A DNA stretch of 64,000 nt. Source: Candidatus Latescibacterota bacterium (GTDB taxonomy: Bacteria; JAAXHH01). Under the pieces are notes generated by a model. The model saw nothing but the letters and a program-made list of their open reading frames with translations. It was not told the origin of the DNA and did no database searches. How positions within the stretch are numbered: the stretch's first letter is position 1; every line of letters begins with the position of its first letter. Position numbers and translations under genes: made by a program. The stretch lies in assembly GCA_022822725.1 (NCBI GenBank), contig JAJEAN010000007.1, positions 383,435-447,434 of the forward strand, written 5' to 3'. Shown here piece after piece: positions 40,014 to 48,911 of this stretch.

Positions 40014-42776
40014 ATGACTGAGGTGCAGAAGACCCTTTTCCTGCTGGACGGAATGGCGCTGGCCTACCGCGGTCATTTCGGGTTGATCCGTAATCCGAGG
40101 ATGACTTCGACGGGGTTGAACGTATCCATGGTGTTCGCCATCGCCAATACCATCCTTGGCATCCTGAACAAGAACCGGCCCACCCACATCGCCGCGGTGT
40201 TCGATACGCCCGAGCCGACCCACCGCCACGAGCAGTATCCCGAGTACAAGGCGCAGCGGGACGCTATGCCCGAAGACCTGAGCACCGCGCTGCCCTACCT
40301 GTTCCGGCTGATCGAAGGGTTCAACATCCCGGTGATCCGCGTACCGGGCTGGGAGGCCGACGACGTGATCGGGACGCTGGCGAAGCAGGCCGACCAGGCA
40401 GGTTACACCACCTTCATGGTCACGCCGGACAAGGATTACGCACAACTCGTCTCCGAGCAGTCCTTCATCTGCAAGCCAGGGAACACCGGGGACAACTTCG
40501 AAACGATGGGCGTGGCCGAGGTGCTGGATAAATGGGGGATCGAGCGCGTCGACCAGGTGATCGACATGCTCGGACTGATGGGCGACGCCAGCGACAACGT
40601 GCCCGGCGTCCCGGGCGTCGGAGAAAAGACCGCGCAGAAGCTCATCGCCCAGTTCGGATCCGTGGAGAACCTGCTGGAGAACACCCACCAGCTGAAGGGC
40701 AAGCAGAAGGAGCGCATTGAAGAAAACAGGGACATGGCCATGCTGTCGAAGAACCTGGTCACCATCGAGCGGGACGTGCCGCTGGACATTACGCCGGACG
40801 GGTTGGCCGTCAAGGAACGCAAGGATGACGACCTTAAGAAGCTGTTCGTCGAGCTGGAGTTCAATACCCTGGGCAAGCGGCTCTTTGGCGACGATTTCTC
40901 GGCGGCCCCGCGGCTGACCGTCGCCGGCAGCCAGGAAGACCTGTTTTCCGACGACCAGCTGAAGACGATCGCGGACGTGGAGCATGACTACCACTGCGTC
41001 GACACCCCGGAATCCCGCGCGGCACTCATCGGCGAGCTTACCCGCGCGCCGAACTTCTGTTTCGACATGGAGACGACGAGCCTGGATCCCAAGACCTGCG
41101 ACATCCTGGGTTTCGCCTTCGCGATCGAACCCCATACGGGATATTACGTGCCCATGCCGGACGGGCGGGAGGAGGTACTGCGGGTCGCGGGCGAATTCCA
41201 GTCCCTCTTCGACGACACCGGCAGGGAACTCATCGGGCACAACATCAAGTTCGACCTTTCCGTGCTGCGGTGGCACGGGATCACCGTGTCCTGCCGCATC
41301 TTCGACACCATGCTGGCGGCCTACGTGACCGTGCCGGACCTGCGGCGGACCATGGACTATCTGTCGCAGGCCCTCCTGGGCTACACGCCGATCTCCATCA
41401 CCACGCTCATCGGTGAAAAAGGAGAGGAGCAGGGCACGCTCAGGGACGCGCCGCTGGAGAAGGTCGTCGAGTACGCGGCAGAAGACGCGGACATCACGTT
41501 GCAGCTCGCGGAACTCCTGCGGCCCCGGATCGGCGAGATGAATCAGGATACCGTATTTGCGGACATCGAATGTCCCCTGGTACCCGCGCTCGTGGAAATG
41601 GAGCACGAAGGCGTGCGGATGGACGTGGGGCAGCTCGAGCACCTGTCGCAACTGCTCGGCGAAGAGATCCAGCGGTCCTCGGACCGGATTACCGAGCTGG
41701 CCGGCGAGCCCGTCGATTTCAACTCGGCCAGGCAGCTTGGCCATATCCTTTTCGACAAGTTGAAAATCGATCCCAATGCCAAGCGCACGGCCAAAACGGG
41801 CCAGTATTCGACGGCGGAAGCCATACTCCGCCGCCTCGCGCCCAAACACGAGATCGTGGAGCAGATCCTCCACTACCGGATGTGCACAAAGCTCAATTCC
41901 GTTTACGTCAGCCAACTGCCCCATGCCGTATTCCAGCCGACCGGACGCGTGCATACCTCGTACGAGCAGGCCGTGATCGCCACCGGCCGGATCCAGTCCC
42001 ACGGGCCCAACCTGCAGACCATCCCGGTCCGCACGGAGATGGGCCGCCAGATCCGCAAGGCCTTCGTGCCCCGGGACGAGGACTACTTGCTGCTGGCCGC
42101 GGACTACTCCCAGATCGAGCTTCGCATCGCGGCAGAACTCAGCAGGGACGAGGGCATGATGGAGACCTTCATTCAGAACGAGGACATCCATTCGGCGACA
42201 GCGATGAAGATCTATGACGTAGACACCGACGGGGTGACCGACGAAATGCGCAGGTTCGCCAAGACCGTCAATTTCGGCATCATCTACGGCATCTCCGCCT
42301 TCGGGCTGGCCGAACGGCTCAACATCCCGCGGGGACAGGGCCAGGATTTGATCGACCAGTACTTTGCGAAGTATCCGGGGACGCGCAAATACATGGACGA
42401 AACGGTCAAGTTCGCGGAAGAGAACGGATTCGTCGAGACCATGACGGGCCGGCGCAGGTACCTGAGGGACATCAATTCCCGGAACAACACCACCAAGCGC
42501 GCCGAGCAGCGCGTCGCCATCAATTCCCGCATCCAGGGCACGGCGGCCGACCTGATCAAGCTGGCCATGACCCGGATCCACAATGAACTGAAGAAGCGGG
42601 AGTGCCGGACGCGGATGCTGCTGCAGGTGCATGACGAACTCGTATTCGATCTGCATAAATCCGAACAGGACACCGTGCCCGGCCTTATCGAGGAATGCAT
42701 GCGGGGCGCGCTGCCCATGACCGTGCCCATCGAGGTGGAAATCGGCATCGGCGCGAACTGGCTGGAGGCGCACTAG
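40014..42776 (+). CDS. polA: DNA polymerase I
   Basis: Repair and primer-removal polymerase of 920 residues with all three domains. The 5'-3' exonuclease occupies residues 1-300 (GWEADDVIGTLAKQA, PGVPGVGEKTAQKLI). The 3'-5' exonuclease at about 345-530 retains D351 and E353 (FDMETTSLD), NIKFDLSVL and YAAEDADIT, so proofreading looks active. In the polymerase domain, motif A contains D697 (DYSQIELRIAAEL), motif B is RFAKTVNFGIIYG (Phe, so ddNTP-discriminating type) and motif C contains D874 (QVHDELVFD). Length matches the family. The ATG has a distant GGAG. It is followed by a 13-bp repeat that duplicates its stop codon. Confidence 0.97.
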   Translation: MTEVQKTLFLLDGMALAYRGHFGLIRNPRMTSTGLNVSMVFAIANTILGILNKNRPTHIAAVFDTPEPTHRHEQYPEYKAQRDAMPEDLSTALPYLFRLIEGFNIPVIRVPGWEADDVIGTLAKQADQAGYTTFMVTPDKDYAQLVSEQSFICKPGNTGDNFETMGVAEVLDKWGIERVDQVIDMLGLMGDASDNVPGVPGVGEKTAQKLIAQFGSVENLLENTHQLKGKQKERIEENRDMAMLSKNLVTIERDVPLDITPDGLAVKERKDDDLKKLFVELEFNTLGKRLFGDDFSAAPRLTVAGSQEDLFSDDQLKTIADVEHDYHCVDTPESRAALIGELTRAPNFCFDMETTSLDPKTCDILGFAFAIEPHTGYYVPMPDGREEVLRVAGEFQSLFDDTGRELIGHNIKFDLSVLRWHGITVSCRIFDTMLAAYVTVPDLRRTMDYLSQALLGYTPISITTLIGEKGEEQGTLRDAPLEKVVEYAAEDADITLQLAELLRPRIGEMNQDTVFADIECPLVPALVEMEHEGVRMDVGQLEHLSQLLGEEIQRSSDRITELAGEPVDFNSARQLGHILFDKLKIDPNAKRTAKTGQYSTAEAILRRLAPKHEIVEQILHYRMCTKLNSVYVSQLPHAVFQPTGRVHTSYEQAVIATGRIQSHGPNLQTIPVRTEMGRQIRKAFVPRDEDYLLLAADYSQIELRIAAELSRDEGMMETFIQNEDIHSATAMKIYDVDTDGVTDEMRRFAKTVNFGIIYGISAFGLAERLNIPRGQGQDLIDQYFAKYPGTRKYMDETVKFAEENGFVETMTGRRRYLRDINSRNNTTKRAEQRVAINSRIQGTAADLIKLAMTRIHNELKKRECRTRMLLQVHDELVFDLHKSEQDTVPGLIEECMRGALPMTVPIEVEIGIGANWLEAH

Positions 42777-42822: not shown

Positions 42823-44574
42823 ATGGGTTCAGGCAACGGCTGGATCCGGGTCGGTTCCGTCGCGGACGTGCCGGCCGGGGAGTCCCGTGCCGTCAAAATC
42901 AGCGAGGGGCGCAGCGTCGCCCTGTTCAACGTGGATGGCCGGATCCACGCCACCGACAACCAGTGCCCCCACATGGGGTTCCCGCTGACGCGCGGCGTGG
43001 TGAAGGACGGCGTCCTTACCTGCGACTGGCATGGACGCAGCTTCGACCTCGAAGGCGGAGGCTGCTTCAACTACGAATGCGACGATCTGGAGACTTTCGC
43101 GGTCGACATCCGCGGGGACGAACTGTGGGTGCAGGCCGGGGACGCGACCTACCGGCGCCGCGACCAGCACCTGCAGCTGCTCTGGGAGGGTCTCCTGAGC
43201 GGGGATTCATGGACGATCTCCAAGGCCACCGCCCTGTTGCTGTCCGGCGGCGTTTCCGAACACGACATAGTGCAGTTGATCCTGCGGCACCTGGGCCGGC
43301 ACGTGGCGTCGGAGCAGGACGCGGGCGGAGGCGGCAACATCGTTTCCCTCCTGGTCTCCGGCCTCGAAGTCGGCCGAAGGTACGACGGAGAGGACCGACT
43401 GATGGCCCTGTCGCTGGCCGGCCGCGCGGCTTCTGGACGTGCGTCTGAACGGCTCGAGGTCATCACGCTGCCGCCGCCGGTGAGCTGGGAACAGATCGAC
43501 GGCTGGGTGCGCATGTTCTCCCGCAATATGCAGGATTTCCGGATCGAACGGTGCCTGCACACGGCCTGCGAAAACGGCCAGGAAGAACATATCTTCAAAC
43601 TGCTGTTCGAATGCGCCGTGGCCCCGTACTTCCTCGGCTTCGCCCGGAACGTGGCCAACCTGGGCGACCTCGCCCGGGTGGTGGATACTTTTGGATGGGG
43701 CGAGGCGTCCGAACTGGTCTGCAACCTGGCCGCCAAGATGGTCGGACGGGGAAGGGACGAGCCGGAGCGCTTTCACCGCGACGCCGTCCGGCTTCTCACC
43801 GATCTCGCCCCGGACCTCGAATCCCACGATTATACCGGAAACACCCGCACCGACTACGACGAGAACGCCCTCGTGGACGCGCTGTTGAGCGTCGACGTCG
43901 AGCGGTCCTTCGGGGCCGTGGCCCAAGCCCTGAAGGACGGCGTGGCCGTCGAGCGCCTCATCACGACCTTCGTCCTGCTCGCGGCGGACCGCATGGCGCG
44001 CACGCCCGTGAACGTGGACGCCGGCTGGGGTTCGTTGTCCACGGAATACAACCTGGCGGCTTCCCTGCGTCACGTGCACGCCTACGGCGGTCCCGCGGCC
44101 GCGGCGAAGGGCCTTTTCCACGCCGCCTGGCAGATCTTCGATAACCGCTGGATCAACATTCCCGCCCGTGCCCTCGACGAACCCCTTCCGGAACATACGT
44201 CGGACGCGCCGGACGCCGCCTCCGCTTCGGAGCGCATCGTCCAGTCCATCAGGTCGCTCGATATCCACGGCGTGGGCGACCAGGTGGTGGGTTACCTGAA
44301 CAGCGGCTTCGACGGTTCCGAGCTGCTGAAAGAAATCGGCCGGGCGATCCTGTGGGACGATACCAACATGGAGCTTCTGCCCACATTGCGCGTCACCTTT
44401 AATGAATGGGAAGGCGCCAGCGGCGGATCGGGACACCCGTCCCGGTACCAGCTCCTGGTGGGGCTGGCCCGATACGCGACGGACGTGCGGTTGAACAAGA
44501 ACAGCATGGCGTCCATCAACACGGCCATGCGGTTTTCCGAAGGGCGGACGACCGTCGAGGTATTTGACGAGTAG
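42823..44574 (+). CDS. Rieske [2Fe-2S] domain protein with large helical C-terminal domain (copy 1)
   Basis: A 583-residue protein. Residues about 5-105 are a bacterial Rieske ferredoxin domain with C-x-H-x16-C-x2-H ligands (CPHMGFPLTRG and CDWHGRSFDL). The remaining roughly 470 residues are predicted alpha-helical, without a signal peptide or membrane helix, and carry repeated motifs RHLGRHVASE, LFECAVAPYFLGFARN, FGWGEASELVCNLAAK, LAADRMARTPVNVDAGWG and GLFHAAWQIF. I do not recognise this domain; it is shared with the next gene. A Rieske donor fused to a His-containing helical domain suggests an oxidoreductase. AAAGG lies upstream of the ATG. Confidence 0.85.
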   Translation: MGSGNGWIRVGSVADVPAGESRAVKISEGRSVALFNVDGRIHATDNQCPHMGFPLTRGVVKDGVLTCDWHGRSFDLEGGGCFNYECDDLETFAVDIRGDELWVQAGDATYRRRDQHLQLLWEGLLSGDSWTISKATALLLSGGVSEHDIVQLILRHLGRHVASEQDAGGGGNIVSLLVSGLEVGRRYDGEDRLMALSLAGRAASGRASERLEVITLPPPVSWEQIDGWVRMFSRNMQDFRIERCLHTACENGQEEHIFKLLFECAVAPYFLGFARNVANLGDLARVVDTFGWGEASELVCNLAAKMVGRGRDEPERFHRDAVRLLTDLAPDLESHDYTGNTRTDYDENALVDALLSVDVERSFGAVAQALKDGVAVERLITTFVLLAADRMARTPVNVDAGWGSLSTEYNLAASLRHVHAYGGPAAAAKGLFHAAWQIFDNRWINIPARALDEPLPEHTSDAPDAASASERIVQSIRSLDIHGVGDQVVGYLNSGFDGSELLKEIGRAILWDDTNMELLPTLRVTFNEWEGASGGSGHPSRYQLLVGLARYATDVRLNKNSMASINTAMRFSEGRTTVEVFDE

Positions 44575-44644
44575 GGATGCGCGGAATGCAGACACGGATC
44601 GTCTGAGCGGATACAAACACGAATCATCAGAGAGGCAATCGGCT

Positions 44645-46396
44645 ATGACGACGGAACAGAATGGTTACGTGAGGGTGGCGGGCACGGACGAGGTGGTGGA
44701 CGGCAAGCCCAAGGCCGTGAAGGTGGAGGGAAGGAGCATCGCCCTCTTCCGGCACAACGGGTCGATCTACGCCACGGACAACCAGTGTCCCCACATGGGC
44801 TACCCGCTGACCCGCGGGCGCGTTCGCAACGGCGTGCTCACCTGCGACTGGCACGGATGGAGCTACGACCTCGGCGGCGGCGGCTGTTTTACCGGCGGGT
44901 GCGACGACCTGGAGACCTTCCCGGTCGAAGAGCGGAACGGCGGTGTATACGTAAGTGTCGGCGACGGCGGATCGAAACGTTCCGACGCCCATTTCCTGCT
45001 GCTGAAGGAAGGGCTCTATTCCACGGACCAGTGGACGATATCCAAGGCCGTCGCCATCATGCTGGCGCGGGGCGTGTCAGAACGGGACACGCTCAACCTC
45101 ATCATCCGTCACGGCGGCCGGCACATCGCCACGGAACGAGGCGCCAACGACGGCGGTGGAGAGGTTTCGGATTTCGTCAACGGGATCAAGGTGGCCCGCC
45201 AGTACGAAAGCGACGACCGCATCATCCCGCTGACCTTCGCCGCCCATGGATTGTCGGGCCGTGCGGGGGACCGGCCGACTATCCAGCGGCTGCCCGATCC
45301 GGTTACCTGGGAGAAACTCGAAGGTTGGATAAGGGTGTTTTCGAAAGACAAGAAATGGGAAGGCATCGAGAAGTGCCTGATCACCGCCCGGCGGATGGGC
45401 GGCCATGACCACGAGATCCTGCCGCTGCTCTTCGAATGCGCCATGGCGCCCCATTTCCTCGGCAATTCGAACAACCTGCTCAACATCGGTTACATCGCGG
45501 AGGTGCTCGAGGAATTCGGATGGGACGAGGCCGAGGAACTGGTCTGCAACCTGTCGGCCAAGATCCTGGGACAGGAGCGGGGGCTGCCCGACGAGATCCG
45601 GCAGTCGGCCATCGACCGGTTCATCGCTGACACGGAGACGCTGGATTCCATCGGCGAAGGAACGTCCGACGATTCAGGCGCGGCGTTCGACGAAGATGCC
45701 TTCGCCGAGGGCCTGGTCAGCGGCGAAATCGGTCCGACCTTCGGCGCGGTCACCCAGGCGCTGCAGGACGGCGTATCGATCGATCGGATCGTGACGACCA
45801 TGGTGGTACTGGCCGCGGACCGCATGGCGCGCACGCCGGTGAACATGAACCCCGGTTGGGGCGGACTGGTCCGGGAGATGATGATGGCCTCCGCGGTCCG
45901 AAAGGCCCTTCGGTTCGGCGGACACAGGGTCGCCGCCCAGGGGCTCTACCACGTCGCCTGGCAGTTCTACGGCGACCGGTGGCTGAACATCACCCATCGG
46001 CCGTTGTCCGAATCCCGTGGTAGTTTGCAGCCGGGTAGCGCGGACGAAGCAGAAGCGATCGAAAGCGTCCTTTCTTCCATAGAGCAAATCCAGATCAGGG
46101 AGATCGGAAGACAGACTCGCGACTATCTGCGTTCCGGCTACTCGGGCGACGCGTTGCTCCGCGATCTCGGCCTGGTGATTCTCAAGGACGACAACGGCCG
46201 GAACATCCTCTCCACGCTGCGCACGATCTTCGACGAGTGGACCCTGTGCGAAGATCATCCGTCCCGCAACCAGTTGCTGGTGGGCCTCGCACGATGGGCC
46301 ACAGACGTGCGCCGCGCCACGGGAAGCCAGTCCGCCGCGGCGACCGCGCTCAGGTTTGCCAAGGGACAGACGGCGGTGGACCTGTACGAGTCGTGA
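44645..46396 (+). CDS. Rieske [2Fe-2S] domain protein with large helical C-terminal domain (copy 2)
   Basis: Also 583 residues and collinear with the preceding gene, so a tandem duplication. Rieske ligands are CPHMGYPLTRG and CDWHGWSYDL with the same x16 spacing. The helical domain keeps RHGGRHIATE, LFECAMAPHFLGNSN, FGWDEAEELVCNLSAK, LAADRMARTPVNMNPGWGG and GLYHVAWQFY. Divergence is substantial throughout, so the copies are old and both appear to be under selection. The ATG at 44645 has GAGAGG upstream; the longer in-frame start overlaps the first gene and is less likely. The 70-bp gap suggests co-transcription. Heteromeric partner or isoenzyme. Confidence 0.85.
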   Translation: MTTEQNGYVRVAGTDEVVDGKPKAVKVEGRSIALFRHNGSIYATDNQCPHMGYPLTRGRVRNGVLTCDWHGWSYDLGGGGCFTGGCDDLETFPVEERNGGVYVSVGDGGSKRSDAHFLLLKEGLYSTDQWTISKAVAIMLARGVSERDTLNLIIRHGGRHIATERGANDGGGEVSDFVNGIKVARQYESDDRIIPLTFAAHGLSGRAGDRPTIQRLPDPVTWEKLEGWIRVFSKDKKWEGIEKCLITARRMGGHDHEILPLLFECAMAPHFLGNSNNLLNIGYIAEVLEEFGWDEAEELVCNLSAKILGQERGLPDEIRQSAIDRFIADTETLDSIGEGTSDDSGAAFDEDAFAEGLVSGEIGPTFGAVTQALQDGVSIDRIVTTMVVLAADRMARTPVNMNPGWGGLVREMMMASAVRKALRFGGHRVAAQGLYHVAWQFYGDRWLNITHRPLSESRGSLQPGSADEAEAIESVLSSIEQIQIREIGRQTRDYLRSGYSGDALLRDLGLVILKDDNGRNILSTLRTIFDEWTLCEDHPSRNQLLVGLARWATDVRRATGSQSAAATALRFAKGQTAVDLYES

Positions 46397-47583: not shown

Positions 47584-47611
47584 ATGCTCATCAACAATTG
47601 TAATGGAGCAT
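47584..47611. promoter_or_regulatory. Inverted repeat overlapping the SD of the sulfite-oxidase-type gene
   Basis: ATGCTCAT (47584-47591) is repeated in inverted orientation as ATGGAGCAT (47603-47611) with a one-base bulge. A CAATTG palindrome lies at 47595-47600 inside the loop. The right arm includes GGAG (47605-47608), the SD of the ATG at 47616. It could be an operator or a leader hairpin that hides the SD. Confidence 0.45.
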
Positions 47612-47615
47612 GACA

Positions 47616-48911
47616 ATGCACAGATTCCCCACCGGGAAGATGCTCTTCGACCTCTACCACCAGGACCCTGACGAAGCCGACCGGCTACTGTTCGGACGCC
47701 GCACGTATCCCGACCGGCGCGGGTTCCTGAAGAACGCCGGCCTGGCGGCCATGGGCGCGCTGGTCGGCGCCGCGATCCCCTTCCACCGAAACATACCGGC
47801 CCACTTCATACCCGTGGCGCTCGCCTCCGAACCGGCGATCCCAGGCAAGGACGGCCTCACGGTCCTCAATGACCGGCCCATGTGCGCGGAGACCCCGCCG
47901 CACCTCCTCGATGACGCCATAACGCCCACCGAAAGGCACTTTGTCCGCAACAACGGGCTGATGCCCCAGGACCTGGACGCATCCCGCTGGCGTCTGGCGA
48001 TTGACGGCCTGGTCGACCGCCCGGTGACGCTGGGAATCGACGATCTTGGAGCGCGCTTCGAAGTCGTCACCCGGGCGCTGGCCCTGGAATGCGCGGGCAA
48101 TGGCCGCGCGTTTTTCGACCCGAAGGCGGATGGCGAACAGTGGACCTACGGCGCGGTGGCCTGCTCGGAATGGACGGGAGTCAGACTGTCGGACGTATTG
48201 ACGGCCGCCGGACTGCAGCCCGGTGCCGTCTACACCGCCCACTACGGCGCAGATACCCATGTGTCCGGCCCGGAGAGTGGACTTCCCATCTCTCGTGGCA
48301 TACCCGTCACCAAGGCCATGGACGGACACAGCCTTATCGCCTTTGCCCAGAACGGGCAGCCGATCCACCCGTTGAATGGCGGACCCCTGCGGCTGATCGT
48401 ACCCGGATGGCCCGGTTCCTGTTCCCAGAAATGGCTGACCCGCATAGAGATACGGGACCAGGTACACGACGGGCCCAAGATGACCGGCACTTCCTATCGG
48501 TTGCCGAATCGAAGTGTCGCGCCTGGCGAGGCCGTGGACGAAAAGGACTTCCGCATCATCGAAAGCATGCCGGTGAAGTCTTTGATCACCCATCCCGCGA
48601 CGGGCCACAGGACAGCGGACGATGAGATCGAGGTGCGCGGGCACGCGTGGACCGGTGAGGGGCGTGTAGATAAGGTCGATCTTTCATTCGATTTCGGGGC
48701 GACCTGGAAGCGGGCGTCGCTGGATGAACCGGTCAACGCCTACGCCTGGCAGAACTGGCGCGCTTCGATCGCGTTTCCCGGGAGCGGGTATTACGAGGTA
48801 TGGGCGCGGGCAACGGATTCACGGGGCGTCAGCCAGCCGCACGCCATCGCATGGAATCCCCGGGGATACCTGAACAACGCCATGCACCGTGTCGCGGTTT
48901 ACGTGGAGTAG
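47616..48911 (+). CDS. Tat-exported molybdopterin oxidoreductase (sulfite oxidase SorA/SUOX type)
   Basis: A 431-residue molybdenum enzyme. A Tat signal occupies residues 30-60 (DRRGFLK at 33-39, then AGLAAMGALVGAA). The oxidoreductase molybdopterin domain contains the molybdenum-ligand Cys, C159 (LALECAGNGR), and the VKAMDGHSL-type segment TKAMDGHSLIAFAQNGQPIHPLNGGPLRL. The C-terminal Mo-co dimerisation domain is present (VRGHAWTGEGRVDKVDLSFDFG). No haem domain is fused, so an external cytochrome or carrier is needed. Sulfite oxidation is the family-based guess. The ATG at 47616 is preferred over 47610 by SD spacing. Confidence 0.9.
   Translation: MHRFPTGKMLFDLYHQDPDEADRLLFGRRTYPDRRGFLKNAGLAAMGALVGAAIPFHRNIPAHFIPVALASEPAIPGKDGLTVLNDRPMCAETPPHLLDDAITPTERHFVRNNGLMPQDLDASRWRLAIDGLVDRPVTLGIDDLGARFEVVTRALALECAGNGRAFFDPKADGEQWTYGAVACSEWTGVRLSDVLTAAGLQPGAVYTAHYGADTHVSGPESGLPISRGIPVTKAMDGHSLIAFAQNGQPIHPLNGGPLRLIVPGWPGSCSQKWLTRIEIRDQVHDGPKMTGTSYRLPNRSVAPGEAVDEKDFRIIESMPVKSLITHPATGHRTADDEIEVRGHAWTGEGRVDKVDLSFDFGATWKRASLDEPVNAYAWQNWRASIAFPGSGYYEVWARATDSRGVSQPHAIAWNPRGYLNNAMHRVAVYVE

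Follow-up and report, generated by a model that had tools for sequence, protein, structure and literature searches.

A matched pair of Rieske iron-sulfur proteins from Latescibacterota that probably acts as a repurposed redox complex

The window, a 64,000-nucleotide stretch of a Candidatus Latescibacterota genome, carries two consecutive genes on its + strand, P1 (42823–44574) and P2 (44645–46396), each of which encodes a 583-residue protein that joins a Rieske domain to a helical domain and has orthologues in all pair loci described below. The longest reading of the P2 open reading frame begins with a TTG codon at 44564, and it is the ATG at 44645 that yields the 583-residue product. The translated proteins are 49% identical, are collinear end to end, and have in common the motifs RHxGRHxAxE, LFECAxAPxFLG, FGWxEAxELVCNLxAK, LAADRMARTPVN and GLxHxAWQ. 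Translation and the alignment of P1 with P2 bear out the coordinates, protein lengths and motifs that the original prediction had read from this DNA. Relative to their orthologues, P1 and P2 alike display a dN/dS of 0.06–0.10, which corresponds to strong purifying selection. Because of these values, and because orthologous pairs are present in dozens of genomes, the two open reading frames are not chance occurrences.

Residues 1–105 of both proteins constitute a Rieske [2Fe-2S] domain (42823–43137 in P1 and 44645–44959 in P2, + strand). The domain matches PF00355 with an E-value of 9e-18 and a score of 64.4 bits in P1, and with an E-value of 2e-20 and a score of 72.7 bits in P2, the gathering cut-off being 20.3. 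The cluster ligands are arranged as C48-x-H50-x16-C67-x2-H70 in both proteins and are unchanged across all 57 P1 and 57 P2 sequences. Near these ligands in sequence is an extra cysteine pair, C81 and C86 (44885–44902 in P2, + strand), which is invariant in the pair; in single-copy relatives, the C81 site is T or C and the C86 site is A, G or D, and the two cysteines never occur together. A Rieske domain able to donate electrons is what P1 and P2 share with the Rieske non-heme iron oxygenases of the naphthalene dioxygenase type. The match, however, is limited to this part, as the catalytic domain of those oxygenases has another fold, whereas the C-terminal part of P1 and P2 is all-helical. Neither protein shows the C-terminal catalytic domain that characterises ring-hydroxylating oxygenases: the Pfam and NCBIfam matches of P1 and P2 are confined to the Rieske part, and the structural model of the remainder is all-helical.

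The helical domain, about 475 residues long (43144–44571 in P1 and 44966–46393 in P2, + strand), can be aligned between the two proteins and with their relatives. It belongs to no Pfam or NCBIfam family in P1 or P2, and a Pfam scan of all 63 relatives returned no family either. PDB sequences and a viral fold library likewise contained no match to it. An ankyrin-like repeat was considered and dropped, the Ank_3 model having scored an E-value of 0.19 in P1 only. The earlier description of a Rieske–helical fusion whose helical part belongs to no curated family agrees with the Pfam and NCBIfam searches, and the twin genes are a real find, absent from curated libraries.

Profile comparison of the helical domain, as proposed in the original prediction, ties it to two kinds of relatives. 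Single-copy Rieske-fused proteins share the domain with the pair at an hhalign probability of 100 (E 2e-94), and so do proteins that have no Rieske domain (E 1e-15). As judged from these alignments, P1 and P2 are members of an unnamed family defined by an N-terminal Rieske domain followed by a helical domain of ~475 residues. In a sample of 384 genomes from around and outside the phylum, 26 contain members. The genome of the window itself has a third copy elsewhere (L003, at C9:1923651–1925375, L003:1483–3261), which is 28% identical, is of the single-copy type and keeps all the family histidines. By sequence reading, the neighbors of L003 are an NHL/SMP-30-like repeat gene and a SufR/DeoR-like helix-turn-helix regulator.

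The single-copy type is also carried on plasmids of Priestia, Nostoc, Microvirga, Paraburkholderia, Sinorhizobium and haloarchaea, where the annotation mostly reads just Rieske protein. The Priestia (WP_177564172.1), Nostoc (BAY35606.1) and Halorussus (WP_158058992.1) proteins have, as does L003, the domain order and length of the pair, and are annotated only as ‘Rieske 2Fe-2S domain-containing protein’. The single-copy type differs from the pair in that it is encoded by one gene, keeps H280, K287, H417 and H527, which are lost in the pair, lacks C265 and C86 and, as a rule, also lacks H156 and H538. We found no described function for the single-copy Rieske-fused proteins, and the plasmid-borne relatives have no gene context in common. 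The homologues that have no Rieske domain (L178–L183) contain the helical domain of the pair with three family histidine positions kept, and an N-terminal histidine-rich stretch takes the place of the Rieske domain. At one locus (L190, G377:C13:16000–35500), such homologues are found in an apparent catabolic cluster with an ABC transporter, a glutamine-synthetase-like gene, an amidohydrolase, an AMP-ligase and an open reading frame of the metallo-beta-lactamase fold. At another (the L154 locus, L162), an open reading frame that fuses a ferredoxin to a metallo-beta-lactamase-like part closely follows a single-copy Rieske-helical gene.

The AlphaFold2 model of P2 has a pLDDT of 88.7 for the whole chain and 88.4 for the helical domain, which is predicted to be all-helix. 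When the whole-chain model was used in a PDB fold search, the results were filled by Rieske proteins. The search with the helical domain by itself, also suggested earlier, retrieved with Foldseek the structure of AflY (8yxs), a non-heme iron dioxygenase, at a probability of 0.98, with TM-scores of 0.41/0.43 over 457 columns and an E-value of 0.085, both of them modest. This structure is the sole high-probability PDB match among the matches listed and spans the whole helical domain; other helical matches have a similar E-value and a very low probability. PDB sequences link AflY to BTG13 and to the hydroquinone dioxygenase PaD, and the questin-oxidase-like set (PF14027) considered here comprises BTG13 (7y3w, 7y3x and 7y3y), PaD (8z4q) and AflY (8yxs). 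At the level of primary structure, PF14027 had no Pfam match to the pair in the protein scans and none in the genome of the window up to an E-value of 10, and its hhalign probability was at most 1.1, level with a reversed control. Sequence proof of the link was sought with several profiles, none of which was significant against the reversed control. Placement of the C-terminal domain in a characterised family, an outcome that the original prediction had named as counting against it, is suggested by the fold and by no profile.

A second line of comparison comes from distant single-copy members (L153, L154, L155 and L185), in which consecutive histidines are spaced by 101–106, 134–140 and 107–112 residues and are then followed by a lysine at +3. 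In BTG13, the corresponding residues are H58, H158, H296, H374 and K377 (spacings of 100, 138, 78 and 3), and the iron is presumably bound by these four histidines and carboxylated K377. A pattern resembling H..H..H..HxxK arises in 0.1–0.8% of shuffles of the distant members, L155 falling just outside the tolerance. The pair is thus similar to the questin-oxidase-like dioxygenases in its predicted fold, and its distant single-copy relatives in the H..H..H..HxxK pattern, but the pair itself is without their ligands, has a Rieske domain and does not match their Pfam model. Descent of the helical domain from the questin-oxidase fold is likely, not proven.

We compared the family histidines (numbered as in L003) in a joint alignment of 57 P1, 57 P2, 22 single-copy and 5 Rieske-less sequences. 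H280, H417 and H527 are conserved in 22/22, 20/22 and 22/22 single-copy proteins, respectively, and in all five Rieske-less ones. At the same columns, P1 displays D/H/Q/R, M/T/R and E/Q, and P2 displays R/N/D/E, E/D/R/H and D/N/E/H (n = 57 for each), with conserved flanks anchoring the alignment around the drifted positions. The residues of the window that stand in for H280, H417 and H527 are R275 (43645–43647), T407 (44041–44043) and E517 (44371–44373) in P1, and N276 (45470–45472), R410 (45872–45874) and N520 (46202–46204) in P2, all on the + strand. The iron-ligand positions of questin oxidases have thus drifted in the 57 P1 and 57 P2 sequences, and the pattern is present only in distant single-copy members. 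As both proteins have lost the predicted mononuclear-iron histidine set, P1 and P2 are not canonical questin-oxidase-like oxygenases.

A different set of residues is fixed in the pair. C81, C86, H156, C244, C265, H436 and H538 are invariant, with H156 (45110–45112 in P2, + strand) and H538 (46256–46258) being pair-specific and H436 of the GLxHxAWQ motif (45950–45952) being a histidine in 14 of the 22 single-copy proteins as well. K134, D392, R393, W405, R445, N448, D516 and R550 are also invariant, some of them in common with the single-copy family, and each copy has invariants of its own (R240/R243 in P1, G240/K243 in P2). H436 was dropped as a universal metal ligand because several single-copy proteins have D, Y, A, Q or F in its place, and H156/H160 was dropped as an ancestral ligand because most relatives have Y or F there. 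The motif conservation asserted in the original prediction therefore holds between the two copies, whereas RHxGRH (H156/H160) and the cysteine residues are not kept in the wider family. The same prediction had reasoned from conserved His and Cys residues and the fused Rieske domain to a redox enzyme. A broad redox role stands, the Rieske ligands being invariant, but P1 and P2 no longer have the ancestral histidine set, and the notion that they are an ordinary redox enzyme of the oxygenase kind has to be corrected accordingly.

Both full genes were read at 56 loci, and in every one of them P1 comes first and P2 follows on the same strand. A scan of a species-genome collection returned pair-type loci labelled Latescibacterota, Poribacteria, Acidobacteria, Gemmatimonadota and Gammaproteobacteria, and, within the order, the tandem pair occurs both in the genomes of its own genus and in one other family. 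Many of these loci look, from their isolate names, like sponge-associated metagenome-assembled genomes (MAGs), and others carry groundwater labels. The taxon labels of some MAG records (L058, L060, L066, L055 and L056) are inconsistent, as near-identical loci, 93–95% to the window, are labelled Gemmatimonadetes or Latescibacterota (L058, L060 and L066 versus L055 and L056). The gap between the genes is mostly 10–140 bp in Latescibacterota, Acidobacteria and Gammaproteobacteria, and 0.4–2.6 kb in many Poribacteria, usually with an ankyrin-repeat gene inside; this separation weakens a strict operon argument. Among the pair loci, we saw none that had one complete gene and intact flanks without the partner.

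In a tree of 130 proteins, P1 and P2 occupy separate clades with sub-groups that match in each half. Their pairwise distances mirror each other (r = 0.97), and no locus has a P1 that is nearer to its partner P2 than to the most distant P1. The separate clades and mirrored distances indicate that the duplication is older than the spread among phyla and that the two genes travelled together. A local duplication devoid of conserved context, which had been named as one outcome that would undo the original prediction, is rejected on account of the shared gene order across phyla and the separate clades. The long-term retention of both copies despite their divergence, also foreseen, is compatible with a heteromer or with a pair of linked functions. 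Co-inheritance supports a functional unit, of which a heteromer would be the simplest form.

The suggested comparison of neighborhoods assigned no function from context: across the pair loci, the pair has no constant neighbor, whether a reductase, a pathway gene or any other. The Poribacteria loci repeatedly carry ankyrin, SHMT-like, WD40, HHH and MORN genes. In Poribacteria, an ankyrin-repeat gene of ~425 residues either separates P1 from P2 or lies just upstream of them, on the same strand (L065:4493–5770 and 37 other loci), and a second ankyrin open reading frame, of 188 residues, is present in 12 loci. In the window, a DNA polymerase I-like gene (40014–42776) stops 46 bp short of P1; pair loci beyond the genus do not retain this neighbor. 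The open reading frame at 47610–48911 resembles a molybdopterin-dependent enzyme of the sulfite-oxidase type with a signal peptide.

P1 and P2 make up a previously undescribed pair of matched iron-sulfur proteins, probably acting together as a repurposed redox complex. The reading that we favor, with a probability of roughly 0.5, is an ancient two-subunit Rieske redox complex in which the helical halves are a repurposed oxygenase fold. P1 and P2 would most likely assemble as a hetero-oligomer, and their helical halves would descend from a Rieske-fused branch of the questin-oxidase-like non-heme iron oxygenases. Each Rieske [2Fe-2S] cluster would accept a single electron supplied by a cellular reductase and relay it to a centre that lies within or between the helical domains, where the chemistry would rest on the pair-specific invariants H156, C244, C265, H436, H538, K134, D392–R393 and C81/C86. 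A tentative and less probable proposal goes further: an obligate two-subunit Rieske enzyme of an undescribed kind, in which a new metal or thiol/disulfide centre, putatively drawn from C81/C86, H156, C244, C265, H436 and H538, replaces the ancestral iron site.

P1 and P2 could instead be two separate oxygenases that work on successive or different substrates and adjoin through a shared pathway, each with its own Rieske donor and with iron bound by replacement residues (e.g., H156/H160, H436 and H538). Both proteins do retain the Rieske domain together with the fold, polar residues are invariant at many positions, and each protein has its own invariants at positions 240 and 243, but this arrangement is unlikely considering (i) the hypothetical nature of the new metal site, (ii) the lack of a conserved pathway gene flanking the pair, and (iii) the lack of any locus with a complete gene deprived of its partner. 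We also think it rather improbable that P1 and P2 serve as a redox sensor or a scaffold without catalytic activity, in which dead oxygenase domains bind and the Rieske cluster and C81/C86 thiols report the redox state. The complete drift of the ancestral histidine positions in both copies, the extra invariant cysteine pair near the Rieske ligands in sequence and the ankyrin-repeat gene adjoining the pair in Poribacteria are in line with such a role; the strongly conserved polar residues (K134, D392–R393, W405, R445, N448, D516 and R550), however, are more like those of an active pocket, and the pair has no linked regulator. About as doubtful is an unrelated alpha-helical fold that came to resemble questin oxidases by structural convergence, a view that accommodates the missing profile signal to PF14027, the weak Ank_3 score (E 0.19) and the many other helical matches at similar E-values, albeit of very low probability. 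It accords poorly with 8yxs being the sole high-probability PDB match among those listed and covering the whole domain, and with the colinear H..H..H..HxxK of BTG13-like spacing in distant members, which so few shuffles reproduce.

If the favored reading of a repurposed two-subunit complex is true, the questin-oxidase-like iron dioxygenases, a small group, would gain a Rieske-coupled branch that spans Bacteria and haloarchaea and whose members have hitherto passed simply as ‘Rieske domain protein’. The pair would furthermore represent a deeply conserved heteropair in which both halves have lost the canonical metal site, and it would pose the question of what role a Rieske cluster plays once the oxygenase site has been lost. 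Among the Poribacteria and Latescibacterota of sponges, whose core biochemistry is little known, the pair is common.
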